In this document: positions 1 to 54,715 of the stretch, one piece after another
Numbering within the stretch: the stretch's first letter is position 1
Layout of the letters: every line of letters starts with the position of its first letter
Assembly: GCF_029227915.1 (NCBI RefSeq)
Contig: NC_079878.1
Span: 7,626,001 to 7,690,000, forward strand
Source of the DNA: Hydractinia symbiolongicarpus
Lineage: Eukaryota > Cnidaria > Hydrozoa > Anthoathecata > Hydractiniidae
Direction: 5' to 3'
DNA length: 64,000 bases
Program-made: the position numbers and the translations under genes
The notes under the pieces: model-generated
The model's input: only the letters and a program-made list of their open reading frames with translations
What the model was told of the DNA's origin: nothing
Database searches by the model: none

Positions 1-30
1 TAATTGAAATTCCAAGTGGCGTAATAGTCA

Positions 31-114
31 GTCAGGATGGCCCAGTGGTCTAAGGCGCTGCGTTCAGGTCGCAGTCTACATTCGTAGGCGTGGGTTCGAA
101 TCCCACTTCTGACA
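31..114 (+). tRNA. tRNA-Leu(CAG), canonical
   Basis: Acceptor GTCAGGA pairs with TTCTGAC (one G:U); anticodon loop TTCAGGT gives CAG; long variable arm CTAC/GTAG identifies a class II leucine tRNA; discriminator A73. Position 13 is C instead of G. The B box GGTTCGAATCC is perfect. Confidence 0.85.
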
Positions 115-384
115 TAAAATTGAAGATTAAGGAAGATGCTCTCTAAAAGTCGTTAAAAACACGTTGCAACTCTACGTTTTCTTTATAAAAAAAGTCCCTA
201 GCAAATGCTTGATTGTTGTTCAACCGTACAGGTCTTTAATGTGGAAACACGGTCCTTTTTCGTGTTCAAACGAAAGTCAAGACCAAGGATTAAAGTTTTA
301 CTGTGAGATGTACTTTTCATTCCTTCTATTAATCCAGAATCAATATCACTTATGTACTTGACATTCGAAATGGCATAGAAGACT

Positions 385-468
385 CTCAGGATGTTCGAGT
401 GGTCTATGGTACTGCGTTCAGGTCGCAGTCTACATTCGTAGGCGTTGGTTCGAATCCCACTTCTGACA
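385..468 (+). pseudogene. tRNA-Leu(CAG)-like, C1/TTC class
   Basis: C1:C72 mismatch, D stem TTC, and a G51T mismatch in the T stem (GTTGG). Confidence 0.7.
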
Positions 469-737
469 TAGACTTGAAGATTAAGGAAGATGCTCTATAA
501 AAGTTGTTAAAAAGAAATTGCAACTCTACGTTGGCTTTATACAAAAACTCCCTAGCAAATGCTTGATTGTTGTTCTACCGTACAGGTCTTTAATGTGAAA
601 ACACGGTCCTTTTTAGGTTTAAACGAATGTAAAGACCAATGACTAGTGTTTTACCTTGAAATATAGTTTTTATTCCTTCTATTAATCCAGAATCAATATC
701 ACTTACATACTTGAAATTCCAAGTGGCGTAAAAGTCA

Positions 738-821
738 GTCAGGATGGCCGAGTGGTGTAAGGCGCTGCGTTCAGGTCGCAGTCTACATTCGTAGGCGTGG
801 GTTCGAATCCCACTTCTGACA
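738..821 (+). tRNA. tRNA-Leu(CAG), canonical
   Basis: All stems pair; one D-loop substitution (GTGGTGTAAG). Confidence 0.83.
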
Positions 822-1090
822 AAAACTTGAAGATTAAGGAAGATGCTCTCTAAAAGTCGTTAAAAAGAAGTTGCCACTCTACGTTTTCTTTCTAAAGAAC
901 CTTTCCAGCATGTTCTTGATTGTTGTTCTACCGTACAGGTCTTTGATGTGGAAACACGGTCCTTTTTAGGTTTAAACGAATGTAAAGACCAATGACTAGT
1001 GTTTTACCTTGAAATATAATTTTTATTCCTTCTATTTATCCAGAATCAATATCACTTACATAATTGAAATTCCAAGTGGCGTAAAAGTCA

Positions 1091-1174
1091 GTCAGGATGG
1101 CCGAGTGGTCTAAGGCGCTGCGTTCAGGTCGCAGTCTACATTCGTAGGCGTTGGTTTGAATCCCACTTCTGACA
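1091..1174 (+). tRNA. tRNA-Leu(CAG), T-arm variant
   Basis: Acceptor, D and anticodon arms intact; T arm GTTGG-TTTGAAT breaks the B box, so transcription is doubtful. Confidence 0.6.
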
Positions 1175-1443
1175 TAAACTTGAAGATTAAGGAAGATGCT
1201 CTCTAAAAGTCGTTAAAAACACGTGGCAACTCTACGTTTTCTTTATAAAAAAAGTCCCTAGCCAATACTTGATTGTTGTTCAACCGTACAGGTCTTTAAT
1301 GTGATAACACGGTCCTTTTTAGGTTTAAACTAATGTAAAGACCAATGACTAGTGTTTTACCTTGAAATATAATTTTTATTCCTTCTATTAATCCAGAATC
1401 AATATCACTTACATAATTGAAATTCCAAGTGGCGTAATAGTCA

Positions 1444-1527
1444 GTCAGGATGGCCCAGTGGTCTAAGGCGCTGCGTTCAGGTCGCAGTCCACATTCGTAG
1501 ACGTTGGTTTGAATCCCACTTCGGACA
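1444..1527 (+). pseudogene. tRNA-Leu(CAG)-like, T-arm variant with acceptor mismatch
   Basis: Acceptor 3' strand TTCGGAC mispairs at A4; T-arm variant; variable arm changed (TCCACATTCGTAGAC). Confidence 0.65.
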
Positions 1528-1797
1528 TAAACTTGAAGATTAAGGAAGATGCTCTCTAAAAGTCGTTAAAAACACGTGGCAACTCTACGTTTTCTTTATA
1601 AAAAAAGTCCCTAGCAAATGCTTGATTGTTGTTCAACCGTACAGGTCTTTAATGTGGAAACACGGTCCTTTTTCGTGTTCAAACGAAAGTCAAGACCAAA
1701 GATTAAAATTTTACTGTGAGATGTACTTTTCATTCCTTCTATTAATCCAGAATCAATATCACTTACATACTTGAAATTCCAAGTGGCGTAAAATTCA

Positions 1798-1881
1798 GTC
1801 AGGATGGCCGAGTGGTCTAAGGCGCTGCGTTCAGGACGCAGTCTACATTCGTAGGCGTGGCTTCGAATCACACTTCTGACA
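1798..1881 (+). pseudogene. tRNA-Leu(CAG)-like, T stem broken
   Basis: Anticodon loop TTCAGGA (A38); T stem GTGGC/CACAC has two mismatches. Confidence 0.6.
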
Positions 1882-2150
1882 TGAACTTGAAGATTAAGGA
1901 AGATGCTCTCTAAAAGTCGTTAAAGAGAAGTTGCCACTCTATGTTTTCTTTCTAATGAACCTTCCCAGCATATTCTTGATTGTTGTTCAACCGTACAGGT
2001 CGCTAATGTAGAAACACGGTCCTATTTAGGTTTAAACGATTGTAAAGACCAATGACTAGTGTTTTACCTTGAAATATAATTTTTATTCCTTCTATTAATC
2101 CAGAATCAATATCACTTACTTACTTGAAATTCCAAGTGGCGTAAAAGTCA

Positions 2151-2234
2151 GTCAGGATGGCCGAGTGGTCTAAGGCGCTGCGTTCAGGTCGCAGTCTACA
2201 TTCGTAGGCGTGGGTTCGAATCCCACTTCTGACA
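2151..2234 (+). tRNA. tRNA-Leu(CAG), canonical
   Basis: Reference-quality copy: every arm pairs, and A box TGGCCGAGTGG and B box GGTTCGAATCC are intact. The first T4 run downstream is at 2297-2300, 63 bp past the gene. Confidence 0.88.
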
Positions 2235-2503
2235 AAAACTTGAAGTTTAAGGAAGATGCTCTCTAAAAGTCGTTAAAAAGATGTTGCCACTCTACGTTTT
2301 CTTTCTAAAGAACCTTTCCAGCATGTTCTTGATTGTTGTTCTACCGTACATGTCTTTGATGTGGAAACACGGTCCTTTTTAGGTTTAAACGGATGTAAAG
2401 ACCAATGACTAGTGTTTTACCTTGAAATATAATTTTTATTCCTTCTATTAATCCAGAATCAATATCACTTACATAATTGAAATTCCAAGTGGCGTAAAAG
2501 TCA

Positions 2504-2587
2504 GTCAGGATGGCCGAGTGGTCTAAGACGCTGCGTTCAGGTCGCAGTCTACATTCGTAGGCGTTGGTTTGAATCCCACTTCTGACA
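2504..2587 (+). pseudogene. tRNA-Leu(CAG)-like, T-arm variant with D-stem mismatch
   Basis: D stem GCC faces GAC; T arm GTTGG-TTTGAAT. Confidence 0.6.
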
Positions 2588-2856
2588 TAAACTTGAAGAT
2601 TAAGGAAGATGCTCCCTAAAAGTCGTTAAAAACACGTGGCAACTCTACGTTTTCTTTATAAAAAAAGTCCCTAGCAAATGCTTGATTGTTGTTCAACCGT
2701 ACAGGTCTTTAATGTGAAAACACGGTCCTTTTTAGGTTTAAACGAATGTAAAGACCAATGACTAGTGTTTTACCTTGAAATATAGTTTTTATTCCCTCTA
2801 TTAATCCAGAATCAATATCACTTACATACTTGAAATTCCAAGTGGCGTAAAAGTCA

Positions 2857-2940
2857 GTCAGGATGGTCGAGTGGTCTAAGGCGCTGCGTTCAGGTCGCAG
2901 TCTACATTCGTAGGCGTGGGTTCGAATCCCACTTCTGACA
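2857..2940 (+). tRNA. tRNA-Leu(CAG), canonical
   Basis: C11 to T, still pairing as U:G in the D stem; the rest is perfect. Confidence 0.84.
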
Positions 2941-3209
2941 AAAACTTGAAGATTAAGGTAGATGCTCTCTAAAAGTCGTTAAAAAGAAGTTGCCACTCTA
3001 CGTTTTCTTTCTAAAGAACCTTTCCAGCATGTTCTTGATTGTTGTTATACCGCACAGGTCTTTGATGTGGAAACACGGTCCTTTTTAGGTTTAAACGAAT
3101 GTAAAGATCAATGACTAGTGTTTTACCTTGAAATATAATTTTTATTCCTTCTATTAATCCAGAATCAATATCACTTACATAATTGAAATTCCAAGTGGCA
3201 TAATAGTCA

Positions 3210-3293
3210 GTCAGGATGGCCTAGTGGTCTAAGGCGCTGCGTTCAGGTTGCAGTCTACATTCGTAGACGTTGGTTTGAATCCCACTTCTGACA
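3210..3293 (+). tRNA. tRNA-Leu(CAG), T-arm variant
   Basis: D arm GCCTAG; anticodon stem contains a G:U (TGCAG); T arm GTTGG-TTTGAAT. Confidence 0.5.
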
Positions 3294-3563
3294 TAAACTT
3301 GAAGATTAAGGAAGATGCTCTCTAAAAGTCGTTAAAAACTCGTGGCAACTCTACGTTTTCTTTATAAAAAAAGTCCCTAGCAAATGCTTCATTGTTGTAC
3401 AAGCGTACAGGTCTTTAATGTGGAAACACGGTCCTTTTTCGTGTTCAAACGAAAGTCAAGACCAAGGATTAAAATTTTACTGTGAGATGTACTTTTCATT
3501 CCTTCTATTAATCCAGAATCAATATCACTTATGTACTTGACATTCGAAATGGCATAGAAGACT

Positions 3564-3647
3564 CTCAGGATGTTCGAGTGGTCTATGGCACTGCGTTCAG
3601 GACGCAGTCTACATTCGTAGGCGTGGGTTCGAATCCCACTTCTGACA
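3564..3647 (+). pseudogene. tRNA-Leu(CAG)-like, C1/TTC class
   Basis: T arm and B box perfect, but C1:C72 and a lost G10 in the A box. Confidence 0.65.
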
Positions 3648-3916
3648 TAAGTTTGCAGATTAAGGAAGATGCTCTATAAAAGTTGTTAAAAAGAAATTGC
3701 AACTCTACGTTGGCTTTATACAAAAACTCCCTAGCAAATGCTTGATTGTTGTTCTACCGTACAGGTCTTTAATGTGGAAACACGGTCCTATTTAGGTTTA
3801 AACGATTGTAAAGACCAATGACTAGTGTTTTACCTTGAAATATAATTTTTATTCCTTCTATTAATCCAGAATCAATATCACTTACATAATTGAAATTCCA
3901 AGTGGCGTAAAAGTCA

Positions 3917-4000
3917 GTCAGGATGGCCGAGTGGTCTAAGGCGCTGCGTTCAGGTCGCAGTCTATATTCGTAGGCGTGGGTTCGAATCCCACTTCTGACA
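3917..4000 (+). tRNA. tRNA-Leu(CAG), canonical
   Basis: All stems pair; variable arm CTATATTCGTAG. The next T5 run on the sense strand is only at 4142-4146, 142 bp downstream. Confidence 0.84.
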
Positions 4001-4269
4001 TAAACTTGAAGATTAGGGAAGATGCTCTCTAAAAGTCGTTAAAAACACCTTGCAACTCTACGTTGGCTTTATACAAAAACTCCCTAGCAAATGCTTGATT
4101 GTTGTTCTACCGTACAGGTCTTTAATGTGAAAACACGGTCCTTTTTAGGTTTAAACGAATGTAAAGACCAATGACTAGTGTTTTACCTTGAAATATAGTT
4201 TTTATTCCTTCTATTAATCCAGAATCAATATCACTTACATACTTGAAATTCCAAGTGGCGTAAAAGTCA

Positions 4270-4353
4270 GTCAGGATGGCCGAGTGGTCTAAGGCGCTGC
4301 GTTCAGGTCGCAGTCTACATTCGTAGCCGTGGGTTCGAATCCCACTTCTGACA
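4270..4353 (+). tRNA. tRNA-Leu(CAG), canonical
   Basis: Perfect stems; base before the T stem is C (GTAGCC). Confidence 0.84.
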
Positions 4354-4622
4354 AAAACTTGAAGATTAAGGAAGATGCTCTCTAAAAGTCGTTAAAAAGA
4401 AGTTGCCACTCTACGTGTTCTTTCTAAAGAACCTTTCCAGCATGTTCTTGATTGTTGTTCTACCGTACAGGTCTTTGATGTGGAAACACGGTCCTCTTTA
4501 GGTTTAAACGAATGTAAAGACCAATGACTAGTGTTTTACCTTGAAATATAATTTTTATTCCCTCTATTAATCCAGAATCAATATCACTTACATAATTGAA
4601 ATTCCAAGTGGCGTAAAAGTCA

Positions 4623-4706
4623 GTCAGGATGGCCGAGTGGTCTAAGGCGCTGCGTTCAGGTCGCAGTCTACATTCGTAGGCGTTGGTTTGAATCCCACTT
4701 CTGACA
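4623..4706 (+). tRNA. tRNA-Leu(CAG), T-arm variant
   Basis: Only the T arm (GTTGG-TTTGAAT) differs from canonical. Confidence 0.6.
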
Positions 4707-4976
4707 TAAACTTGAAGATTAAGGAAGATGCTCCCTAAAAGTCGTTAAAAACACGTGGCAACTCTACGTTTTCTTTATAAAAAAAGTCCCTAGCAAATGC
4801 TTGATTGTTGTTCAACCGTACAGGTCTTTAATGTGAAAACACGGTCCTTTTTCATGTTCAAACGAATGTAAAGACCAATGACTAGTGTTTTACCTTGAAA
4901 TATAGTTTTTATTCCTTCTATTAATCCAGAATCAATATCACTTATATACTTGACATTCCAAGTGGCGTAAAAGTCA

Positions 4977-5060
4977 GTCAGGATGGCCGAGTGGTCTAAG
5001 GCGCTGCGTTCAGGTCGCAGTCTACATTCGTAGGCGTTGGTTTGAATCCCACTTCTGACA
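4977..5060 (+). tRNA. tRNA-Leu(CAG), T-arm variant
   Basis: Only the T arm differs from canonical. Confidence 0.6.
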
Positions 5061-5329
5061 TAAACTTGAAGATTAAGGAAGATGCTCTCTAAAAGTCGTT
5101 AAAAACACGTGGCAACTCTACGTTTTCTTTATAAAAAAAGTCCCTAGCAAATGCTTGATTGTTGTTCAACCGTACAGGTCTTTAATGTGAAAACACGGTC
5201 CTTTTTAGGTTTAAACGAATGTAAAGACCAATGACTAGTGTTTTACCTTGAAATATAGTTTTTATTCCCTCTATTAATCCAGAATCAATATCACTTACAT
5301 ACTTGAAATTCCAAGTGGCATAAAAGTCA

Positions 5330-5413
5330 GTCAGGATGGCCGAGTGGTCCAAGGCGCTGCGTTCAGGTCGCAGTCTACATTCGTAGGCGTGGGTTCGAAT
5401 CCCACTTCTAACA
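5330..5413 (+). tRNA. tRNA-Leu(CAG), acceptor mismatch C3:A70
   Basis: 3' acceptor strand TTCTAAC leaves one mismatch; all other arms and both boxes are intact. Confidence 0.65.
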
Positions 5414-5683
5414 AAAACTTGAAGATTAAGGAAGATGCTCTCTAAAAGTCGTTAAAAAGAAGTTGCTACTCTACGTTTTCATTCTAAAGAACCTTTCAAG
5501 CATGTTCTTGATTGTTGCTCAACCGTACAGGTCGCTAATGTAGAAATACGGCCTCTTTTTAGGTTCAAACGAATGTAAAGACAAAGGACTAGTGTTTTAC
5601 CTTGAAATATGGTTGTTATTCCTTCTATTAATCCAAAATCAATATCACTTACATACTTGAAATTCCAAGTGATGTAAAAGTCA

Positions 5684-5767
5684 GTCAGGATGGCCGAGTG
5701 GTCTAAGGCGCTGCGTTCAGGTCGCAGTATACATTCGTAGGCGTGGGTTCGAATCCCACTTCTGACA
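5684..5767 (+). tRNA. tRNA-Leu(CAG), canonical
   Basis: Perfect stems; variable arm ATAC/GTAG. Confidence 0.84.
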
Positions 5768-6037
5768 TAAGTTTGAAGATTAAGGAAGATGCTCTCTAAA
5801 AGTCGTTAAAAAGAAGTTGCAACTCTACGTTTTCTTTATAAAAAAAGTCCCTAGCATATGCTTGATTGTTGTTCAACCGTACAGGTCTTTAATGTAGAAA
5901 CACGGTCCTTTTTCGTGTTCAAACGAAAGTCAAGACCAAGGATTAAAATTTTACTGTGAGATGTACTTTTCATTCCTTCTATTAATCCAGAATCAATATC
6001 ACTTATGTACTTGACATTCGAAATGGCATAGAAGACT

Positions 6038-6121
6038 CTCAGGATGTTCGAGTGGTCTATGGCACTGCGTTCAGGACGCAGTCTACATTCGTAGGCGTGG
6101 GTTCGAATCCCACTTCAGACA
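6038..6121 (+). pseudogene. tRNA-Leu(CAG)-like, C1/TTC class
   Basis: Second acceptor mismatch from 3' strand TTCAGAC; shared with the copy at 7450. Confidence 0.65.
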
Positions 6122-6389
6122 AAGTTTGAAGATTAAGGAAGATGCTCTATAAAAGTTGTTAAAAAGAAATTGCAACTCTACGTTGGCTTTATACAAAAAC
6201 TACCTAGCAAATGCTTGATTGTTGTTCTACCGTACAGGTCTTTGATGTGGAAACACGGTCCTTTTTAGGTTTAAACGGATGTAAAGACCAATGACTAGTG
6301 TTTTACCTTGAAATATAGTTTTTATTCCTTCTATTAATCCAGAATCAATATCACTTATATACTTGACATTCCAAGTGGCGTAAAAGTCA

Positions 6390-6473
6390 GTCAGGATGGC
6401 CGAGTGGTCTAAGGCGCTGCGTTCAGGTCGCAGTCTACATTCGTAGGCGTTGGTTTGAATCCCACTTCTGACA
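6390..6473 (+). tRNA. tRNA-Leu(CAG), T-arm variant
   Basis: Unit 2 of the 1412-bp tetramer; only the T arm is altered. Confidence 0.6.
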
Positions 6474-6742
6474 TAAACTTGAAGATTAAGGAAGATGCTC
6501 TCTAAAAGTCGTTAAAAACACGTGGCAACTCTACGTTTTCTTTATAAAAAAAGTCCCTAGCAAATGCTTGATTGTTGTTCAACCGTACAGGTCTTTAATG
6601 TGAAAACACGGTCCTTTTTAGGTTTAAACGAATGTAAAGACCAATGACTAGTGTTTTACCTTGAAATATAGTTTTTATTCCCTCTATTAATCCAGAATCA
6701 ATATCACTTACATACTTGAAATTCCAAGTGGCGTAAAAGTCA

Positions 6743-6826
6743 GTCAGGATGGCCGAGTGGTCTAAGGCGCTGCGTTCAGGTCGCAGTCTACATTCGTAGG
6801 CGTGGGTTCGAATCCCACTTCTGACA
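6743..6826 (+). tRNA. tRNA-Leu(CAG), canonical
   Basis: Unit 3 of the 1412-bp tetramer; all arms perfect. Confidence 0.87.
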
Positions 6827-7095
6827 AAAACTTGAAGATTAAGGAAGATGCTCTCTAAAAGTCGTTAAAAAGAAGTTGCCACTCTACGTTTTCTTTCTAA
6901 AGAACCATTCTAGCATGTTCTTGATTGTTGTTCTACCGTACAGGTCTTTGATGTGGAAACACGGTCCTTTTTAGGTTTAAACGAATGTAAAGACCAATGA
7001 CTAGTGTTTTACCTTGAAATATAAATTTTATTCCTTCTATTAATCCAGAATCAATATCACTTACATAATTGAAATTCCAAGTGGCGTAATATTCA

Positions 7096-7179
7096 GTCAG
7101 GATGGCCTAGTGGTCTAAGGCGCTGCGTTCAGGTTGCAGTCTACATTCGTAGACGTTGCTTTGAATCCCACTTCTGACA
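7096..7179 (+). pseudogene. tRNA-Leu(CAG)-like, damaged T arm
   Basis: T stem GTTGC/CCCAC with loop TTTGAAT; D arm GCCTAG. Confidence 0.6.
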
Positions 7180-7449
7180 TAAACTTGAAGATTAAGGAAG
7201 ATGCTCTCTAAAAGTCGTTAAAAACACGTGGCAACTCTACGTTTTCTTTATAAAAAAAGTCCCTAGCATATGCTTGATTGTTGTTCAACCGTACAGGTCT
7301 TTAATGTAGAAACACGGTCCTTTTTCGTGTTCAAACGAAAGTCAAGACCAAGGATTAAAATTTTACTGTGAGATGTACTTTTCATTCCTTCTATTAATCC
7401 AGAATCAATATCACTTATGTACTTGACATTCGAAATGGCATAGAAGACT

Positions 7450-7533
7450 CTCAGGATGTTCGAGTGGTCTATGGCACTGCGTTCAGGACGCAGTCTACAT
7501 TCGTAGGCGTGGGTTCGAATCCCACTTCAGACA
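7450..7533 (+). pseudogene. tRNA-Leu(CAG)-like, C1/TTC class
   Basis: Copy of 6038, same TTCAGAC acceptor change. Confidence 0.65.
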
Positions 7534-7801
7534 AAGTTTGAAGATTAAGGAAGATGCTCTATAAAAGTTGTTAAAAAGAAATTGCAACTCTACGTTGGCT
7601 TTATACAAAAACTACCTAGCAAATGCTTGATTGTTGTTCTACCGTACAGGTCTTTGATGTGGAAACACGGTCCTTTTTAGGTTTAAACGGATGTAAAGAC
7701 CAATGACTAGTGTTTTACCTTGAAATATAGTTTTTATTCCTTCTATTAATCCAGAATCAATATCACTTATATACTTGACATTCCAAGTGGCGTAAAAGTC
7801 A

Positions 7802-7885
7802 GTCAGGATGGCCGAGTGGTCTAAGGCGCTGCGTTCAGGTCGCAGTCTACATTCGTAGGCGTTGGTTTGAATCCCACTTCTGACA
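7802..7885 (+). tRNA. tRNA-Leu(CAG), T-arm variant
   Basis: Copy of 6390. Confidence 0.6.
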
Positions 7886-8154
7886 TAAACTTGAAGATTA
7901 AGGAAGATGCTCTCTAAAAGTCGTTAAAAACACGTGGCAACTCTACGTTTTCTTTATAAAAAAAGTCCCTAGCAAATGCTTGATTGTTGTTCAACCGTAC
8001 AGGTCTTTAATGTGAAAACACGGTCCTTTTTAGGTTTAAACGAATGTAAAGACCAATGACTAGTGTTTTACCTTGAAATATAGTTTTTATTCCCTCTATT
8101 AATCCAGAATCAATATCACTTACATACTTGAAATTCCAAGTGGCGTAAAAGTCA

Positions 8155-8238
8155 GTCAGGATGGCCGAGTGGTCTAAGGCGCTGCGTTCAGGTCGCAGTC
8201 TACATTCGTAGGCGTGGGTTCGAATCCCACTTCTGACA
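8155..8238 (+). tRNA. tRNA-Leu(CAG), canonical
   Basis: Copy of 6743; all arms perfect. Confidence 0.87.
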
Positions 8239-8507
8239 AAAACTTGAAGATTAAGGAAGATGCTCTCTAAAAGTCGTTAAAAAGAAGTTGCCACTCTACG
8301 TTTTCTTTCTAAAGAACCATTCTAGCATGTTCTTGATTGTTGTTCTACCGTACAGGTCTTTGATGTGGAAACACGGTCCTTTTTAGGTTTAAACGAATGT
8401 AAAGACCAATGACTAGTGTTTTACCTTGAAATATAAATTTTATTCCTTCTATTAATCCAGAATCAATATCACTTACATAATTGAAATTCCAAGTGGCGTA
8501 ATATTCA

Positions 8508-8591
8508 GTCAGGATGGCCTAGTGGTCTAAGGCGCTGCGTTCAGGTTGCAGTCTACATTCGTAGACGTTGCTTTGAATCCCACTTCTGACA
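8508..8591 (+). pseudogene. tRNA-Leu(CAG)-like, damaged T arm
   Basis: Copy of 7096 (GTTGC-TTTGAAT). Confidence 0.6.
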
Positions 8592-8861
8592 TAAACTTGA
8601 AGATTAAGGAAGATGCTCTCTAAAAGTCGTTAAAAACACGTGGCAACTCTACGTTTTCTTTATAAAAAAAGTCCCTAGCAAATGCTTCATTGTTGTTCAA
8701 CCGTACAGGTCTTTAATGTGGAAACACGGTCCTTTTTTGTGTTCAAACGAAAGTCAAGACCAAGGATTAAAATTTTACTGTGAGATGTACTTTTGATTCC
8801 TTCTATTAATCCAGAATCAATATCACTTATGTACTTGACATTCGAAATGGCATAGAAGACT

Positions 8862-8945
8862 CTCAGGATGTTCGAGTGGTCTATAGCACTGCGTTCAGGA
8901 CGCAGCCTACATTCGTAGGCGTGGGTTCGAATCCCACTTCTGACA
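8862..8945 (+). pseudogene. tRNA-Leu(CAG)-like, C1/TTC class
   Basis: Also D-stem 3' side AGC. Confidence 0.65.
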
Positions 8946-9214: not shown

Positions 9215-9298
9215 GTCAGGATGGCCGAGTGGTCTAAGGCGCTGCGTTCAGGTCGCAGTCTATATTCGTAGGCGTGGGTTCGAATCCCACTTCTGACA
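9215..9298 (+). tRNA. tRNA-Leu(CAG), canonical
   Basis: Same variable-arm variant (CTATATTCGTAG) as the copy at 3917. Confidence 0.84.
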
Positions 9299-44059: not shown

Positions 44060-44072
44060 TAAACTTGAAGAT

Positions 44073-45703: not shown

Positions 45704-45787
45704 TTCAGGATGGCCGATTGGTCTAAGGTGCTGCGTTCAGGTCGCAGTCTACATTCGTAGGCGTGGGTTCGAATCCCACTTCTGACA
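45704..45787 (+). pseudogene. tRNA-Leu(CAG)-like, T1:C72
   Basis: Acceptor TTCAGGA; D arm GCCGATTGG.GGT. Confidence 0.55.
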
Positions 45788-46057
45788 AAAACTTGAAGAT
45801 TAAGGAAGATGTTCTCTAAAAGTCGTTAAAAAGAAGTTGCAACTCTACGTTTTCTTTATAAAAAAACTCCCTTGCATATGCTTGATTGTTGTTCAACCGT
45901 ACAGGTCGCTAATGTAGAAATACGGTCCTTTTTTAGGTTCAACCGAAAGTCAAGACCAAGGGTTAAATTTGTACCGTAAAATATACTTGTTGTTGCTTCT
46001 ATTAATCCAGAATTAATATCACTTATGTACGTGACATTCCAATTGGCGTAAAAGACA

Positions 46058-46141
46058 ATCAGGATGGTCGAGTGGTCTATGACGCTGCGTTCAGGTCGCA
46101 GTCTACATTCGTAGGCGTGGGTTCGAATCCCACTTCTGACA
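46058..46141 (+). pseudogene. tRNA-Leu(CAG)-like, A1:C72
   Basis: D stem GTC/GAC pairs by compensating change; only pair 1:72 is lost. Confidence 0.5.
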
Positions 46142-46410
46142 TAAACTTGAAAATTAAGGAAGATGCTCTCTAAAATTCGATAAAAAGAAATTGTAACTCT
46201 ACGTTGGCTTTATACAAAAATTCCCTAGCATATGCTTGATTGTTTTTCAATCGTACATGTCGCTAATGTAGAAACACAGCCTCTTTTTAGGTTCAAACGA
46301 ATGTAAAGACCAAGGACTAGTATTTTACCTTGAAATATAGTTGTTTGCCTTCTATTAATCCAGAATCAATATCACTTACATACTTGAAATTCAACGTGAC
46401 GTAAAAGACA

Positions 46411-46494
46411 GTCAGGATGGCCGAGTGGTCCAAAGCGCTGCGTTCAGGACGCAGTCTACATTCGTAGGCGTGGGTTCGAATCCCACCTCTGACA
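46411..46494 (+). pseudogene. tRNA-Leu(CAG)-like, as copy 43622
   Basis: Same GTCCAAAGCG and CTCTGAC changes. Confidence 0.55.
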
Positions 46495-46764
46495 TAAACT
46501 TTAAGATTAAGGAAGATGCTCTCTAAAAGTGATTAAAAAGAAATTACAACTCTATGTTTTCTTTATGAAAAAACTCCCTAGCATATTCTTGATTGTTGTT
46601 CATCGGTACAGGTCGCTAATGTAGAAATACGGTCCTTTTTTAGGTTCAACCGAAAGTCAAGATCAAGGATTAAAGTTTTACTGTGAGATGTACTTTTTTT
46701 TCCTTCTCTTAATCCAGAATCAATATCACTTATGTGCTTGACAATCGAAATGGCATAGAACACT

Positions 46765-46848
46765 CTCAGGATGGCCGAGTGGTCTAAGGCGCTGCGTTCA
46801 GGTCGCAGTCTACATTCGTAGGCGTGGGTTCGAATTCCAGTTCTGACA
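46765..46848 (+). pseudogene. tRNA-Leu(CAG)-like, as copy 43976
   Basis: C1:C72, T arm ending TCCAG. Confidence 0.6.
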
Positions 46849-46861
46849 TAAACTTGAAGAT

Positions 46862-46893
46862 GGCGCATATTCATATTCTTACACATAGCACAC
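46862..46893 (+). repeat. Private spacer replacement, copy 3 of 4
   Basis: Part of the 1376-bp tetramer; makes that unit 315 bp long. Confidence 0.8.
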
Positions 46894-47079
46894 ATAGCAT
46901 ATTCTTGATTGTTGTTCAACCTTACAGGTCGCAAATGTAGAAATACGGTCCTATTTTAGGTTCACACGAAAGTCAAGACCAAGGGTTAAAGTTTTACTGT
47001 GAGATGTACTTTTTTTCCTTCTATTATTCCAGAATCAATATCACTTATGTACTTGACAATCGAAATGGCATAGAAGACT

Positions 47080-47163
47080 TTCAGGATGGCCGATTGGTCT
47101 AAGGTGCTGCGTTCAGGTCGCAGTCTACATTCGTAGGCGTGGGTTCGAATCCCACTTCTGACA
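47080..47163 (+). pseudogene. tRNA-Leu(CAG)-like, T1:C72
   Basis: 1376-bp partner of 45704. Confidence 0.55.
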
Positions 47164-47433
47164 AAAACTTGAAGATTAAGGAAGATGTTCTCTAAAAGTC
47201 GTTAAAAAGAAGTTGCAACTCTACGTTTTCTTTATAAAAAAACTCCCTTGCATATGCTTGATTGTTGTTCAACCGTACAGGTCGCTAATGTAGAAATACG
47301 GTCCTTTTTTAGGTTCAACCGAAAGTCAAGACCAAGGGTTAAATTTGTACCGTAAAATATACTTGTTGTTGCTTCTATTAATCCAGAATTAATATCACTT
47401 ATGTACGTGACATTCCAATTGGCGTAAAAGACA

Positions 47434-47517
47434 ATCAGGATGGTCGAGTGGTCTATGACGCTGCGTTCAGGTCGCAGTCTACATTCGTAGGCGTGGGTTC
47501 GAATCCCACTTCTGACA
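47434..47517 (+). pseudogene. tRNA-Leu(CAG)-like, A1:C72
   Basis: 1376-bp partner of 46058. Confidence 0.5.
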
Positions 47518-47786
47518 TAAACTTGAAAATTAAGGAAGATGCTCTCTAAAATTCGATAAAAAGAAATTGTAACTCTACGTTGGCTTTATACAAAAATTCC
47601 CTAGCATATGCTTGATTGTTTTTCAATCGTACATGTCGCTAATGTAGAAACACAGCCTCTTTTTAGGTTCAAACGAATGTAAAGACCAAGGACTAGTATT
47701 TTACCTTGAAATATAGTTGTTTGCCTTCTATTAATCCAGAATCAATATCACTTACATACTTGAAATTCAACGTGACGTAAAAGACA

Positions 47787-47870
47787 GTCAGGATGGCCGA
47801 GTGGTCCAAAGCGCTGCGTTCAGGACGCAGTCTACATTCGTAGGCGTGGGTTCGAATCCCACCTCTGACA
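47787..47870 (+). pseudogene. tRNA-Leu(CAG)-like, as copy 43622
   Basis: 1376-bp partner of 46411. Confidence 0.55.
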
Positions 47871-48140
47871 TAAACTTTAAGATTAAGGAAGATGCTCTCT
47901 AAAAGTCATTAAAAAGAAATTACAACTCTATGTTTTCTTTATGAAAAAACTCCCTAGCATATTCTTGATTGTTGTTCATCGGTACAGGTCGCTAATGTAG
48001 AAATACGGTCCTTTTTTAGGTTCAACCGAAAGTCAAGATCAAGGATTAAAGTTTTACTGTGAGATGTACTTTTTTTTCCTTCTCTTAATCCAGAATCAAT
48101 ATCACTTATGTGCTTGACAATCGAAATGGCATAGAACACT

Positions 48141-48224
48141 CTCAGGATGGCCGAGTGGTCTAAGGCGCTGCGTTCAGGTCGCAGTCTACATTCGTAGGCG
48201 TGGGTTCGAATTCCAGTTCTGACA
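48141..48224 (+). pseudogene. tRNA-Leu(CAG)-like, as copy 43976
   Basis: 1376-bp partner of 46765. Confidence 0.6.
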
Positions 48225-48237
48225 TAAACTTGAAGAT

Positions 48238-48269
48238 GGCGCATATTCATATTCTTACACATAGCACAC
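48238..48269 (+). repeat. Private spacer replacement, copy 4 of 4
   Basis: 1376 bp right of the copy at 46862. Confidence 0.8.
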
Positions 48270-48455
48270 ATAGCATATTCTTGATTGTTGTTCAACCGTA
48301 CAGGTCGCAAATGTAGAAATACGGTCCTATTTTAGGTTCACACGAAAGTCAAGACCAAGGGTTAAAGTTTTACTGTGAGATGTACTTTTTTTCCTTCTAT
48401 TATTCCAGAATCAATATCACTTATGTACTTGACAATCGAAATGGCATAGAAGACT

Positions 48456-48539
48456 TTCAGGATGGCCGATTGGTCTAAGGTGCTGCGTTCAGGTCGCAGT
48501 CTACATTCGTAGGCGTGGGTTCGAATCCCACTTCTGACA
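48456..48539 (+). pseudogene. tRNA-Leu(CAG)-like, T1:C72
   Basis: 1376-bp partner of 47080. Confidence 0.55.
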
Positions 48540-48809
48540 AAAACTTGAAGATTAAGGAAGATGTTCTCTAAAAGTCGTTAAAAAGAAGTTGCAACTCTAC
48601 GTTTTCTTTATAAAAAAACTCCCTTGCATATGCTTGATTGTTGTTCAACCGTACAGGTCGCTAATGTAGAAATACGGTCCTTTTTTAGGTTCAACCGAAA
48701 GTCAAGACCAAGGGTTAAATTTGTACCGTAAAATATACTTGTTATTGCTTCTATTAATCCAGAATTAATATCACTTATGTACGTGACATTCCAATTGGCG
48801 TAAAAGACA

Positions 48810-48893
48810 ATCAGGATGGTCGAGTGGTCTATGGCGCTTCGTTCATGTCGCAGTTTACATTTGTAGGCGTGGGTTGGAATCCCACTTCTGACA
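48810..48893 (+). pseudogene. tRNA-Leu-derived copy with CAT anticodon
   Basis: Anticodon loop TTCATGT (CAT), stem CTTCG/CGCAG with a mismatch, A1, T loop TTGGAAT. Cloverleaf too damaged for a working tRNA. Confidence 0.6.
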
Positions 48894-49164
48894 TGTAATT
48901 CGACATTAGGAAGGATGTTCTTTAAAATGAGTAAAAGGAAATTGCAACGGTAGGTCTTTTTTATGAGAAACCTATCTTCTGGCATATGCTAGATTGTTGT
49001 TCAACTGTACAGGTCTTTAATGTAGAAACACAGCCTCTTTTTAGGTTCAAACGAATGTAAAGACCAAGGACTAGTATTTTACCTTGAAATATAGTTGTTT
49101 CCCTTCTATTAATCCAGAATCAATATCACTTACATACTTGAAATTCAACGTGACGTAAAAGACA

Positions 49165-49248
49165 GTCAGGATGGCCGAGTTGTCCAAAGCGCTGCGTTCA
49201 GGACGCAGTCTACATTAGTAGGCGTGGGTTCGAATCCCACTTCTGACA
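49165..49248 (+). pseudogene. tRNA-Leu(CAG)-like, D arm damaged
   Basis: D arm GAGTTGTCCAAAGC; T arm and acceptor intact. Confidence 0.5.
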
Positions 49249-49517
49249 TAAACTTTAAGATTAAGGAAGATGCTCTCTAAAAGTCATTAAAAAGAAATTA
49301 CAACTCTATGTTTTCTTTATGAAAAAACTCCCTAGCATATTCTTGATTGTTGTTCATCGGTACAGGTCGCTAATGTAGAAATACGGCCCTTTTTTAGGTT
49401 CAACCGAAAGTCAAGATCAAGGGTTAAAGTTTTACTGTGAGATGTACTTTTTTTCCTTCTCTTAATCCAGAATCAATATCACTTATGTACTTGACAATCG
49501 AAATGGCATAGAACACT

Positions 49518-49601
49518 CTCAGGATGGCCGAGTGGTCTAAGGCGCTGCGTTCAGGTCGCAGTCTACATTCGTAGGCGTGGGTTCGAATCCCACTTCTGAC
49601 A
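49518..49601 (+). pseudogene. tRNA-Leu(CAG)-like, only C1:C72 broken
   Basis: Everything else is canonical, including A and B boxes. Confidence 0.5.
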
Positions 49602-49870
49602 AAAACTTGAAGATTAAGGAAGATGTTCTCTAAAAGTCGTTAAAAAGAAGTTGCAACTCTACGTTTTCTTTATAAAAAACTCCCTAGCATATTCTTGATT
49701 GTTGTTCAACCGTACAGGTCGCTAATGTAGAAATACGGTCCTATTTTAGGTTCACACGAAAGTCAAGACCAAGGGTTAACGTTTTACTGTGAGATATACT
49801 TTTTATTCCTTCTATTAATCCAGAATCAATATCACTTATATACCTGACATTCGAATTAGCGTAAAAGACA

Positions 49871-49954
49871 GTCAGGATGGCTGAGCAGTGTAAGGCACTG
49901 CGTTCATGTTGCAATCTACATTTGCAGGCGTTGGTTCGAATCCCACTTCTGACA
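49871..49954 (+). pseudogene. tRNA-Leu-derived copy with CAT anticodon
   Basis: Loop TTCATGT; divergent D arm GCTGAGCAGTG; anticodon stem 3' side TGCAA; T stem GTTGG. Confidence 0.6.
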
Positions 49955-50223
49955 TTTAATTGGTGATTTAGAAGGATGCTCTGTAAAATGTGGAAAATGA
50001 AATTGCAGCAGTAAGTGTTTTTTATGAGAAACCTTCCTATGTTATCCTTTATGGTTGTTCAATCGAACTGGTCGCTAATGTAGAAACACAGTCTCTTTTT
50101 AGGTTCAAACGAATGTAAAGACCAAGGACTAGTGTTTTACCTTGAAATATAGTTGTTATTCCTTCTATTAATCCAAAATAAATATCACCTGCATACTTGA
50201 AATTCAAAGTGGCGTTAAAGTCA

Positions 50224-50307
50224 GTCAGGATGGCCGAGTGGTCTAAGCCGCTGCGTTCAGGTTGCAGTCTACATTCGTAGGCGTGGGTTCGAATGCCACT
50301 TCTGACA
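50224..50307 (+). pseudogene. tRNA-Leu(CAG)-like, D and T stem mismatches
   Basis: D stem GCC/GCC; T stem GTGGG/GCCAC. Confidence 0.55.
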
Positions 50308-50577
50308 TAAACTTGAAGATTAACGAAGATGCTCTCTAAGAGTCGTTAAATAGAAATTTCACCTGTGCGTTTTCTTTCTAAAGAACCTCCCTAGCATATT
50401 CTTGATTGTTGTTCAACCGTACAGGTCGCTAATGTAGAAATACGGTCCTTTTTTAGGTTCAACCGAAAGTCAAGACCAAGGGTTAAATTTGTAACGTAAC
50501 ATATACTTGTTATTGCTTCTATTAATCCAGAATTAATATCACTTATGTACTTGACATTCCAATTGGCGTAAAAGACA

Positions 50578-50661
50578 ATCAGGATGGTCGAGTGGTCTAT
50601 GGCGCTTCGTTCATGTCGCAGTTTACATTTGTAGGCGTGGGTTGGAATCCCACTTCTGACA
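50578..50661 (+). pseudogene. tRNA-Leu-derived copy with CAT anticodon
   Basis: Same form as 48810, 1768 bp (five units) away. Confidence 0.6.
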
Positions 50662-50930
50662 TGTAATTAGACATTAGGAAGGATGTTCTTTAAAATGAGT
50701 AAAAGGAGATTGCAACGGTATGTCTCTTTTATGAGAAACCTATCTGGCATATGCTTTATGGTTATTCAACTGTACAGGTCTTTAATGTAGACACACGGTC
50801 CTTTTTTATGTTCAAACGAAAGTCAAGACCGAGGATTAATGCTTTACCATGAAATATAGTTGTTATTCCTTCTATTATTCCAGAATCAATATTACTTACA
50901 TACTTGACATGCAATATGGTGGAAAAGTTA

Positions 50931-51014
50931 GTCAGGATGACCGAGTGGTCTAAGGCGCTGCGTTCAGGTCGCAGTCTACATTCGTAGGCCTGGGTTCAAA
51001 TCCCACTTCTGACA
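50931..51014 (+). pseudogene. tRNA-Leu(CAG)-like, G10A, T loop TTCAAAT
   Basis: B box loses its central G; T stem begins CTGGG. Confidence 0.55.
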
Positions 51015-51282
51015 TAAATTTGAAGGTTAAGGATGATGGTCTCTAAAAGTCTTAGAAAGAAATTTCACCTGTGCGTTTCCTTTCTAAAAAACCTCCCTAG
51101 CATATTCTTGATTGTTGTTCAACCGTACAGGTCGCTAATGTAGAAACACAGCCTCTTTTTAGGTTCAAACGAATGTAAAGACCAAGGACTAGTATTTTAC
51201 CTTGAAATATAGTTGTTTCTCTTCTATTAATCCAGAATCAATATCACTTACATACTTGAAATTCAAAGTGGCGTAAAAGACA

Positions 51283-51366
51283 GTCAGGATGGCCGATTGG
51301 TCCAAAGCGCTGCGTTCAGGACGCAGTCTACATTCGTAGGCGTGGGTTCGAATCCCACTTCTGACA
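51283..51366 (+). pseudogene. tRNA-Leu(CAG)-like, D arm damaged
   Basis: Relative of 43622 (GCCGATTGGTCCAAAGC) with an intact acceptor. Confidence 0.5.
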
Positions 51367-51635
51367 TAAACTTTAAGATTAAGGAAGATGCTCTCTAAAA
51401 GTCATTAAAAAGAAATTAGAACTCTATGTTTTCTTTATGAAAAAACTCCCTAGCATATTCTTGATTGTTGTTCATCGCTACAGGTCGCTAATGTAGAAAT
51501 ACTGTCCTTTTTTAGGTTCAACCGAAAGTCAAGATCAAGGGTTAAAGTTTTACTGTGAGATGTACTTTTTTTCCTTCTATTAATCCAGAATCAATATCAC
51601 TTATGTACTTGACAATCGAAATGGCATAGAAGGCT

Positions 51636-51719
51636 CTCAGGATGGCCGAGTGGTCTAAGGCGCTGCGTTCAGGTCGCAGTCTACATTCGTAGGCGTGGGT
51701 TCGAATCCCGCTTCTGACA
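51636..51719 (+). pseudogene. tRNA-Leu(CAG)-like, C1:C72
   Basis: T stem GTGGG/CCCGC; otherwise as 49518. Confidence 0.5.
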
Positions 51720-51989
51720 AAAACTTGAAGATTAAGGAAGATGTTCTCTAAAAGTCGTTAAAAAGAAGTTGCAACTCTACGTTTTCTTTATAAAAAAACT
51801 CCCTAGCATATTCTTGATTGTTGTTCAACCGTACAGGTCGCTGATGTAGAAATACGGTCCTATTTTAGGTCCACACGAAAGTCAAGACCAAGGGTAAAAG
51901 TTTTACTGTGAGATATACTTCTTATTCCTTCTATTAATCCAGAATCAATATCACTTATATACCTGACATTCGAATTGGCGTAAAAGACA

Positions 51990-52073
51990 GTCAGGATGGT
52001 CGAGTGGTCTATGGCGCTGCGTTCAGGTAGCAGTCTACATTCGTAGGCGTGAATTGGATTCCCACTTCTGACA
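51990..52073 (+). pseudogene. tRNA-Leu(CAG)-like, T arm lost
   Basis: T arm reads GTGAATTGGATTCCCAC; anticodon stem 3' side AGCAG. Confidence 0.55.
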
Positions 52074-52199
52074 TGTAATTCGAGATTAAGAAAGATGTTC
52101 TTTAAAATGAGTAAAAGGATATTGCAACAGTAAGTCTCTTTTATGAGAAACCTTTCTGGCATATGCTTTATGATTGTTCATCCGTACAGGTCGTTAATG

Positions 52200-52440
52200 T
52201 AGAAATGCGGTCCTTTTTTAGGTTCAAACGAATGTAAAGACCAAGGACTACTGTTTTATCTTGTAATATAGTTGTTATTCCTTCTATTAATCCAAAATCA
52301 ATATCCAAGTTTTCTTGATAAAAAACCTCCCTAGCACATCCTTGATTGTTGTTTAACCGTACAAGTCGCTAATGTAGAAATACGTTCCTTTTTTATGTTA
52401 AAACGGAAGTCAAGACCAAGGGTTAAAGTGGTACCGTGAA
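52200..52440 (+). other. Array unit with its tRNA deleted
   Basis: At about 52306 the pre-tRNA block (AAAATCAATATC) joins directly to post-tRNA spacer (CAAGTTTTCTTGATAAAAAA). The tRNA and about 100 bp after it are missing. Confidence 0.75.
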
Positions 52441-52516
52441 ATGTACTTACTTTGCTTCTATTAATCCAAAATCAATATCACTTATGTACTTGACATTCGA
52501 ATTGTCGTAAAAGACA

Positions 52517-52600
52517 GTCAGGATAGCTGAGTGGTCTATGGCGTTGTGTTCAGGTCGCAGTTTACATTTGTAGGCGTGGGTTGGAATCCCACTTCTGACA
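52517..52600 (+). pseudogene. tRNA-Leu(CAG)-like, degraded
   Basis: D arm AGCTGAG; anticodon stem TTGTG; T loop TTGGAAT. Confidence 0.55.
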
Positions 52601-52856
52601 TGTAATTCGAGATTAAGAAAGATGTTCTTTAAAATGAGTAAAAGGAAATTGCATTTATGAGAAACCTTCCTATAATATCCTTTATGGTTGTTCAACCGTA
52701 CAGGTTGTTAATATAGAAGTACGGTCCTTTTATAGGTTCAAACAAATGTAAAGACCAAGGACTACTGCTTTACCTGGTAATATAGTTGTTATTCCTTCTA
52801 TTAATCCAGAATTAATATCACTTACATACTTGAAATTCAAAGTGGGGTAAAAGACA

Positions 52857-52940
52857 GTCAAGATGGCCGATTGATCAAAGGCGCTGCGTTCAGGTCACAG
52901 TCTACATTCGTAGGCGTGGGTTCTAATCCCACTTCTGACA
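52857..52940 (+). pseudogene. tRNA-Leu(CAG)-like, degraded
   Basis: Acceptor GTCAAGA, D loop GATTGATCA, anticodon stem CTGCG/CACAG, T loop TTCTAAT. Confidence 0.55.
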
Positions 52941-53147
52941 TAAACTTGAAGATTAAGGAAGATGCTCTCTAAAAGTCGTTAAAAAGAAGTTGCAACTCAG
53001 CGTTTTCTTTGTAAAAGACCTCCCTAGCATATGCTTGATTGTTGTTTAATCGTACAGGTTTCTAATGTGGAATTACGTTTTTTTTATGCTCAAACGAAAG
53101 CCAAGAACAAGGATTAGTGTTTTACCTTGAAATGTAGGTGTTATTCT

Positions 53148-53195
53148 GGTCGCAGTTAACATTCGTAGGCGTCGGTTGGAGTCCCACTTCTGACA
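53148..53195 (+). pseudogene. tRNA-Leu 3' fragment
   Basis: Begins GGTCGCAG directly after spacer GTGTTATTCT. The 5' half including the anticodon is absent. Confidence 0.7.
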
Positions 53196-53464
53196 TGTAA
53201 TTCGTGATTAAGAAGGATGTTCTTTAAAATGTGGAAAATGAAATTGCAACAGTAAGTGTTCTTTATGAGAAACCTTCCTATAGTATCCTTTATGATTGTT
53301 CAACCGTACAGCTTGTTAATATAGAAATACGGTCCTTTTATAGGTTCAAACGAATGTAAAGACCAAAGACTACTGCTTTACCTTGTAATACAGTTGTTTT
53401 TCCTTCTATTAATCCAGAATCAACATCACTTACATACCTGAAATTCAAAGTGGGGTAAAAGACA

Positions 53465-53548
53465 GTCAGGATGGCCAATTGATCTAAGGTGCTGAGTTCA
53501 GGTCGCAGTCTACATTCGTAGGCGTGGGTTGAAATCCCACTTCTGACC
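53465..53548 (+). pseudogene. tRNA-Leu(CAG)-like, degraded
   Basis: D arm GCCAATTGATC, anticodon stem CTGAG, T loop TTGAAAT, discriminator C. Confidence 0.55.
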
Positions 53549-53813
53549 TGTAATTCGTGATTAAGAAGGATGTTTTTTAAAATGCGGAAAATGAAGTTGC
53601 AACAGTGTTCTTTATGAGAAACCTTCCTATAATATCCTTTATGGTTGGATAACCGTACAGGTTGTTAATGTAGAAGTACGGCCTATTTTTAGGTTCAAAC
53701 AAATGTAAAGACCAAGGACTAGTGTTTTACCATGCAGTACAGTTGTTAATCCTTCTGTTAATCCAGAATCAATATCACTTACATAATTGAAATCCAAAGT
53801 GGGGTAAAAGACA

Positions 53814-53897
53814 GTCAGCATAGCCGAGTGACCTAAGCCGCTGAGTTCAGGTGGCAGTTTACATTCGTCAGCGTGTGTCCGAATCCCATTTCTGACA
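53814..53897 (+). pseudogene. tRNA-Leu(CAG)-like, degraded
   Basis: Acceptor GTCAGCA; stem CTGAG/GGCAG; T arm GTGTG-TCCGAAT-CCCAT. Confidence 0.55.
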
Positions 53898-54167
53898 TAA
53901 ACATGAAGATTAAGGAAGATGCTCTCTAAAAGTCGTTAAAAAGAAGATGCAACTCTACGTTTTCTTTATAAAAAAACTCCCTAGCATATGCTTGATTGTT
54001 GTTCAATCGTACAGGTCTCTAATGTGGAAATACGATCTTTTTTTAAGTTTAAACGAAAGTCAAGACCAAGGGTTAAGGTTGTACCGTGAAATTTACTTGT
54101 TATTGCTTCTATTAATCCAGAATCAATATTACTTACATACTTGAAACTCAAAGCGGTGTAAAAGGTA

Positions 54168-54251
54168 GTCAGGATGGCCGAGTGGTCTAAGGTGCTCCGT
54201 TCAGGTCGCAGTCTAAATTCGTAGGCGTGTGTTTGAATCCCACTTCTGACA
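54168..54251 (+). pseudogene. tRNA-Leu(CAG)-like, degraded
   Basis: Anticodon stem CTCCG; T arm GTGTG-TTTGAAT. Confidence 0.55.
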
Positions 54252-54517
54252 TAAATGTGAGGATTAAGGAAAATGCTTTCTAAAAATCGTTAAAAAGAAA
54301 TTGCAACTCCAAGTTTTCCTGATAAAAAACCTCCTTAGCATATGGTTGATTGTTGTTCAACCGTACAGGTCTTTAATGTAAAAACACGGTCCTTTTTTAT
54401 GTTCAAACGAAAGTCAAGACCAAGGATTAATGCTTTACCATGAAATATAGTTGTTATACCTTCTAAAAATCCAGAATCAATATTACTTATATACTTGACA
54501 TGCAATATGGCGGAAAA

Positions 54518-54596
54518 GATCGAAGAGTGGTCTAAGACGCTGCGTTAAGGTCGCAGTCTACATTCGTAAGCGTGGGTTCGAATGCCACTTCTGACA
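54518..54596 (+). pseudogene. 5'-damaged tRNA-Leu(AAG)-like copy
   Basis: Last tRNA-like copy of the array. Acceptor 5' strand replaced by AAAAGATCGA; loop TTAAGGT gives AAG; T stem GTGGG/GCCAC. Confidence 0.6.
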
Positions 54597-54715
54597 TAAA
54601 CTTGAAGATTAAGGAAGATGCTCTCTAAACGTCGTTAAAAAGAAGTTGCAACTCTACGTTTTCTTTATAAAAAAAACTCCCTAGCATATGCTTGATTCTT
54701 GTTCAACCGTACAGA

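Follow-up and report, generated by a model that had tools for sequence, protein, structure and literature searches.

A tRNA-Leu gene appears to have become a satellite in Hydractinia symbiolongicarpus, at a single locus where most copies are pseudogenes, a minority is intact and the array as a whole is mostly not a source of tRNA. We assign this reading a probability of about 0.6. The window, which is the whole 64,000-nucleotide stretch analysed, contains the right-hand part of this array and its edge:

1 to 54,715, forward strand: tRNA-Leu satellite of 353-354-bp units (TRF and monomer HMM), the right-hand part (54.7 kb) of an array of 149 kb
54,716 to 55,009, reverse strand: flank at the array edge, with a DUF4116 match in a stop-to-stop frame of 114 aa (54,665-55,009) that shares 51 bases with the last unit
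55,186 to 55,534, reverse strand: inverted decayed unit past the array edge (monomer HMM)
55,537 to 55,648, reverse strand: inverted partial unit past the array edge (monomer HMM)

The TRF rows with a period of 353-354 jointly span positions 4-54,714 of the window, and the monomer HMM gave 162 matches, namely 150 full-length forward, 10 partial forward and 2 inverted and decayed. Even the lowest-scoring full unit among the 150 has an E value of 4.4e-80, so that chance can be ruled out for the array in the window. These counts bear out the initial annotation, which described about 155 head-to-tail units with one tRNA-Leu each. The size it gave, upwards of 54.7 kb, is correct for the part inside the window; the window truncates the array, whose left edge lies 94 kb before the window start. 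The whole array occupies C4:7,532,168-7,681,648 (149 kb) and comprises 399 full forward units, with inverted fragments flanking both ends. Each unit is 353-354 bp long, with a GC content of 0.38, and carries a single class II tRNA-Leu surrounded by ~270 bp of spacer; the mean pairwise identity of the units is 0.845.

As in satellite DNA, one unit is repeated head to tail over a long distance and blocks of units have been copied locally. At an identity of at least 97%, we found, for example, duplications of 18 consecutive units at lag 19, of 15 at lag 33 and of 15 at lag 30. The median distance from a unit to its nearest relative is 18 units, compared with 129 under random placement. This block test does not tell unequal crossing-over from other duplication routes, and unequal exchange is the probable driver of the expansion. 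The array probably descends from a tRNA gene that worked: a tRNA-Leu(CAG) gene, together with ~270 bp around it, would have been duplicated in tandem, and unequal exchange would have enlarged the tandem to a single-locus satellite of ~400 units. The units lack the short T-run that normally halts Pol III just past a tRNA. Most copies would be decaying pseudogenes, and the intact minority might still give tRNA through a long-trailered precursor.

In the window, ARAGORN called 143 tRNAs, almost all Leu(CAG), and 115 Rfam tRNA matches reached the gathering score; when four units were searched with Rfam at E up to 1, their four tRNAs were recovered, along with two weak matches well under their gathering scores. 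A typical copy, with the upstream block discussed below, is:

3,852 to 3,893, forward strand: example of the low-diversity upstream block, its position computed from the tRNA start
3,917 to 4,000, forward strand: example array tRNA-Leu(CAG), 84 nt, 56.2 bits (ARAGORN, Rfam)

The anticodon is not uniform along the array, since the 150 window units comprise 137 CAG, 9 TAG, 3 CAT and 1 AAG, which qualifies the initial annotation. We scored a unit as intact if it keeps all 24 stem pairs, matches the A-box and B-box regular expressions and has a CAG, TAG or AAG anticodon. By this strict rule 23/150 units are intact in the window and 49/399 in the whole array, rising to 41/150 and 92/399 if up to one broken pair is tolerated; the earlier figure of roughly 35 intact genes thus depends on the rule chosen. 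ARAGORN returned 384 calls on the whole C4 array, as against the 49 fully intact units, and tRNA finders therefore inflate the number of working genes here. The A-box expression matches 269 of the 399 units, and both box expressions together match 147. Ranked among 74 windows of the tRNA from least to most variable, the A box is 67th and the B box 38th. Base 1 is a C in 97/399 units, which breaks the 1:72 pair.

A T4 run shortly downstream, as expected of a working tRNA gene, is missing from almost all units of the C4 array. Only 5/399 units, and 0/49 intact units, have a T4 within 25 nt after the tRNA, whereas in each of the six dispersed tRNA genes inspected a T4 follows within 5 nt. The first T4 lies 60-63 nt downstream in 234/399 units, most commonly at 62 nt. 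A T4 within 75 nt is present in 250/399 of all units and in 39/49 of the intact ones, an enrichment that would be expected if the intact units were transcribed. We also searched for the exact 3' end followed by a T4 within 14 nt, which matched nine distinct places: one array unit, a Leu(CAG) gene at C8:5594702, three Leu(CAA), one Leu(TAA) and three on C3. The C8 gene and the array have different variable-arm loops. Terminated Leu(CAG) genes outside the array are thus seldom found by this pattern, which genes with differing 3' ends would escape.

The stem changes of the array tRNAs show no bias toward retention of pairing across the 399 units. The 231 distinct tRNA sequences contain 681 one-sided stem changes, of which 209 preserve a pair; the spacer spectrum predicts 224.7. 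Over 399 units, variability is no lower in the stems (0.112) than in the loops (0.087). Pair-keeping and pair-breaking transitions are equal in frequency (mean 12.1 and 10.3 units, p = 0.49), and stem variants that are common show no excess of kept pairs over singletons (11/46 versus 3/21, p = 0.52). Private mutations in the tRNA are as frequent as predicted from the spacer (37 versus 32.1). The intact units are not significantly enriched among those copied recently. Two observations nonetheless weigh against the satellite reading: at the 97% cut-off the intact share is somewhat higher for copied units (0.20 versus 0.11, rank test p = 0.165), and in the largest near-identical family, of 15 units, every member is either intact or short of one pair.

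The diversity of the tRNA segment, 0.102, is half of the 0.204 predicted from spacer rates for its base composition, which is what partial purifying selection would produce. With age classes defined on a separate, independent stretch of the unit, the tRNA-to-spacer ratio is 0.39-0.56 in every class. A loss of constraint, read from a fall of this ratio from 1.34 in young pairs to 0.58 in old ones, proved to be a binning artefact and was dropped, because no such trend is seen with independently set ages. A comparison of pairs with defects in common was likewise given no weight as a test of constraint, since selecting pairs for similar tRNAs biases it. The 131 youngest pairs, in which both spacer parts are less than 1% apart, show no depletion (tRNA 0.0040, spacer parts 0 and 0.0032). 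In addition, an upstream block of 42 bp (-65 to -24 relative to the tRNA start) is depleted as strongly as the tRNA (0.086 versus 0.181 expected). By eye, this block might bear some likeness to an snRNA-type promoter element.

Searching the genome with the whole unit recovered one locus on one chromosome (8 scored of 20 candidates). As regards a dispersal like that of a tRNA-derived SINE, the same 8 scored candidates gave four tRNA-sized matches outside the C4 array region. A 20-mer of the spacer was absent from viral and prokaryote contig collections, a weak result as the organism's own genome may be missing from them. The genome also contains dispersed tRNA genes, a 1.3-kb multi-tRNA repeat with terminators, and a second array, of tRNA-Leu(UAG/AAG), that fills 104.5 kb on C3. 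The near Pol III terminator is missing in both tRNA-Leu arrays, and may have been lost twice; blastn detected no sequence common to their spacers. In the C3 array the diversity of the tRNAs is barely reduced relative to the spacer (0.048 versus 0.052).

The array might instead be a working supply of tRNA-Leu(CAG), of the Hydractinia type, in which dead copies are tolerated, the remaining intact units being sufficient, and Pol III stops at the T-run ~60-63 nt downstream. The position of that T-run, its enrichment in intact units, the halved tRNA diversity, the fully or nearly intact copies and the small number of other terminated Leu(CAG) genes matched by the exact-3'-end pattern all agree with such a supply, which we nevertheless consider unlikely, given that stem pairs are not preferentially kept, the A box falls in one of the most variable windows of the tRNA, base 1 is a pair-breaking C in 97/399 units, and intact units are not significantly over-copied. 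The initial proposal that the array supplies tRNA-Leu is weakened accordingly, and may hold for the 49 intact units. Of its suggestions, that of a neutral satellite which had captured a tRNA agrees best with the data, because there is no near terminator and no detectable constraint on the fold, and blocks are duplicated.

Maintenance of the array as TFIIIC-type sites, or through the conserved upstream block, would make it a boundary, a replication-pause site or a centromere-like domain. The units matching both box expressions and the depleted upstream block are compatible with this, and a human tRNA tandem repeat has been proposed as a boundary (PMC4041453). The boxes, however, are no better kept than the remaining tRNA, the C3 tRNAs are hardly less diverse than their spacer, and a single locus on one chromosome, with few candidates scored, speaks against a general centromere satellite, making the explanation very improbable; the boundary or centromere role proposed at the outset thus found no positive evidence. 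Quite improbable, too, is the broader idea that the C4 (CAG) and C3 arrays belong to one class of tRNA satellites that have no terminator and that, rather than making tRNA, attract Pol III factors or give rise to long read-through RNA, the upstream block being the DNA element that is maintained in C4. A repeat collapsed or falsely expanded in assembly could account for the near-identity of certain block duplicates, and is hardly credible given that 137/150 monomers in the window and 345/399 in the array are distinct, the units at the array ends score low and the edge copies are inverted; Hydractinia RNA arrays have also been argued to be genuine (PMC11067881, section 14).

Several tandem tRNA arrays are known. 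In Hydractinia, tandem arrays covering the tRNAs for all 20 amino acids have been described (PMC11067881); searching that main text for the word 'Leu' gives no hit, and section 14 does not mention terminators or decay. The C4 array is less uniform than those published ncRNA arrays, and its spacer is at the low end for them (PMC11067881). Nematostella, a fellow cnidarian, has more than 17,000 tRNA genes and pseudogenes, with 89% of tDNAs clustered, mostly as heterogeneous neighbour pairs, whereas C4 repeats one gene (PMC2888827). The word 'unusual' in the initial annotation is therefore too strong for this animal group, given these two precedents and the other arrays of the same genome; long tRNA arrays are a known kind in such animals, and it is the decay of the C4 array that is informative. 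Maize tRNASAT_ZM (91.95 kb, chr4L) is likewise a single-locus satellite of ~100 kb named for a tRNA, in a plant (PMC10335936). In Entamoeba tRNA genes also lie in tandem arrays in which most copies are uniform, but units hold up to 5 genes and nearly all tRNA genes are included (PMC2652664); one gene per unit and the dispersed tRNA genes rule out an array of this type. The human 1q23.3 tRNA VNTR also repeats tRNA genes in tandem, including tRNA-Leu, in a GC-rich 7.3-kb unit with five genes and a CTCF site (PMC4041453), and a macrosatellite boundary with such a kb-sized unit fails for the 353-bp, 38% GC unit of C4. The passages of PMC13119343 and PMC13327316 contain nothing on tRNA arrays.

The terminator-bearing multi-gene repeat and the tRNA-Leu arrays without near terminators offer a comparison inside one genome, which makes testable at what point a tandem tRNA gene family turns into satellite DNA, and how far nominal hundreds of tRNA genes matter for tRNA supply. 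At the array edge, the DUF4116 frame has no relative at E 0.001, and a flanking 328-aa frame, without a Pfam family at E 0.1, has one relative at 92%.

The satellite found in the window by tandem-repeat search (TRF) occupies positions 1-54,715, and consists of head-to-tail units with a period of 353-354 bp, each containing a single class II tRNA-Leu. In the window, a monomer HMM gave 162 matches (150 full units and 10 partial ones in forward orientation, and 2 inverted, decayed ones), ARAGORN predicted 143 tRNAs, and 115 Rfam tRNA matches reached the gathering score. The array described in the initial annotation is present in both TRF and HMM results, and its structure stands; the window holds a little over one third of 149 kb, the total length with inverted fragments included. 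This was determined by adding 120 kb on the left and 10 kb on the right (194 kb in all), where the HMM gave 428 matches, including 399 full forward units. The features on C4, the contig in which the window spans 7,626,001-7,690,000, are:

C4:7,533,031-7,680,715, + strand, forward array (monomer HMM)
C4:7,532,168-7,532,285, inverted, fragment at the left end of the array (monomer HMM)
C4:7,681,186-7,681,648, inverted, fragments at the right end of the array (monomer HMM)
Window 55,186-55,648, - strand, the same right-end fragments in window positions, two inverted decayed monomer matches (monomer HMM)

Over the 194 kb, ARAGORN made 384 tRNA predictions, 342 of which are Leu(CAG). To the left of the window, 190 Rfam matches in 100 kb exceeded the gathering score, a count that misses units split by the borders of the scanned stretches; all of the 150 matches listed are tRNA. 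The array is interrupted by an insert at C4:7,541,050-7,542,654, where the HMM matches stop at 7,541,049 and resume at 7,542,655. This insert has a tRNA-like head followed by a CTAT run of more than 1 kb, and looks SINE-like by eye.

Among the 399 units, the anticodon is CAG in 361, TAG in 15, CAT in 13, CAA in 4 and GAG in 2, while CGG, TAA, CAC and AAG are each seen once. Standard pairing at all 24 stem positions is kept in 72/399 units; the A-box pattern was matched in 269, the B-box pattern in 212, and both in 147. Units intact by all these measures, with a CAG, TAG or AAG anticodon, number 49/399 (23/150 in the window alone). The most frequent tRNA sequence, with 31 copies, is 3 bases away from a dispersed tRNA-Leu(CAG) on another contig (C8:5594702). 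An amplified subfamily has lost the 1:72 pair, as base 1 is C in 97/399 units. Three tRNA-Leu bodies with the CAT (Met) anticodon lie in the window, and five of those in the whole array belong to one copied family:

Window 48,810, tRNA-Leu body with CAT anticodon
Window 49,871, tRNA-Leu body with CAT anticodon
Window 50,578, tRNA-Leu body with CAT anticodon

Blocks of up to 18 consecutive units are repeated at fixed lags with an identity of at least 97%, and the closest relative of a unit lies at a median distance of 18 units, and at most 40 units away for 336/399. Many families of near-identical units have common defects, and therefore defective units were copied as well; the biggest family comprises 15 units, each intact or with one broken pair. 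The zero-defect shares at three cut-offs were 0.20 vs 0.11, 0.15 vs 0.13 and 0.14 vs 0.18 (rank-test p = 0.165, 0.655 and 0.149, respectively), and copying shows no clear preference for or against intact units.

The most likely reading, to which we assign a probability of roughly 0.6, is that a tRNA-Leu gene has become a satellite in which a minority of the units is still intact. The main rival, a working but shabby array supplying tRNA-Leu, is less likely. Across 345 distinct C4 units, with the expectation taken from spacer rates by base type, tRNA diversity is 0.102 vs 0.204 expected, and that of the block from -65 to -24 is 0.086 vs 0.181. This upstream block, 42 bp long, is as low in diversity as the tRNA itself. 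Singletons are undepleted in both (37 vs 32.1 expected in the tRNA, 19 vs 18.0 in the block). In an independent binning, the lower tRNA diversity is seen in every age class (ratio 0.39-0.56) except the youngest pairs, 131 in number, whose divergence is 0.0040 in the tRNA vs 0 and 0.0032 in two spacer parts. One-sided stem changes preserve a pair in 209/681 cases vs 224.7 expected, transitions in the C4 stems show no significant excess of pair-keeping over pair-breaking changes, and stems are more variable than loops. The A box ranks 67 and the B box 38 in diversity among 74 windows. The feature conserved in the tRNA segment does not seem to be the fold, and halved diversity without fold bias could reflect constrained units mixed with dead ones, or additional homogenisation of this segment.

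With regard to termination, a run of four T (T4) in the 25 nt that follow the tRNA is present in 5/399 C4 units (3/150 in the window) and in 0/49 intact ones. The first T4 lies at +62 in 216/399 units, and a T4 occurs within 75 nt in 250/399, including 39/49 intact ones. In some animals, Pol III may terminate further on when the first T-run is missing. Dispersed tRNA genes from three loci have a T4 within 5 nt in 6/6 cases.

The initial annotation called the array unusual, and it is not unique: the same genome has two further tRNA arrays, both on contig C3, and others have been published elsewhere.

C3:30,106,001-30,210,500, second tRNA-Leu array, 1,059-bp dimer with mostly TAG and AAG genes
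C3:8,400,001-8,405,000, 1.3-kb tandem repeat with tRNA genes Asp, Lys, Ala, Leu, Tyr and Met

The second tRNA-Leu array occupies the entire 104.5 kb taken, with both ends open, and in blastn of its spacers against the C4 unit the best E was 4.5, only the tRNA parts matching. Its tRNA diversity, measured in 89 full dimers among 120 matches, is hardly lower than that of the spacer (0.048 vs 0.052), with no shortage of singletons per site in the tRNAs (0.421 vs 0.327). A T4 within 40 nt was found in 0/8 genes of a 4.5-kb stretch, and the first T4 of the consensus are at +38 and +81. In the 1.3-kb repeat, where the Leu gene (CAA) and the Tyr gene have introns, 19/23 tRNA predictions have a T4 within 18 nt, and the other 4/23, all of them copies of a single tRNA-Lys, lack a T4 in the first 60 nt; the 23 predictions derive from 7 genes, so the independent terminator cases are few. 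A genome-wide Rfam tRNA search (480.9 Mb in 76 contigs) gave 49,105 loose first-look candidates, 63 of which were scored, the listed ones being all on C3.

In the Hydractinia genome, arrays with tens to hundreds of tandem copies, including tRNAs for all 20 amino acids, have been described by authors who left their meaning open (PMC11067881). Maize has a tRNA satellite of 92 kb (PMC10335936), tRNA arrays exist in Entamoeba (PMC2652664) and at human 1q23.3 (PMC4041453), and 89% of Nematostella tDNAs are clustered (PMC2888827). Literature searches and main-text passages on such arrays showed no mention of terminator loss.

Right of the array, the window contains:

Window 58,476-59,462, + strand, single open frame of 328 aa, GPCR-like by eye, with several hydrophobic stretches
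Window 62,627-63,031, + strand, fragment with a match to PF17039 (fucosyltransferase N-terminal family)

The 328-aa frame matched no Pfam family at E 0.1, and has one 92% relative.
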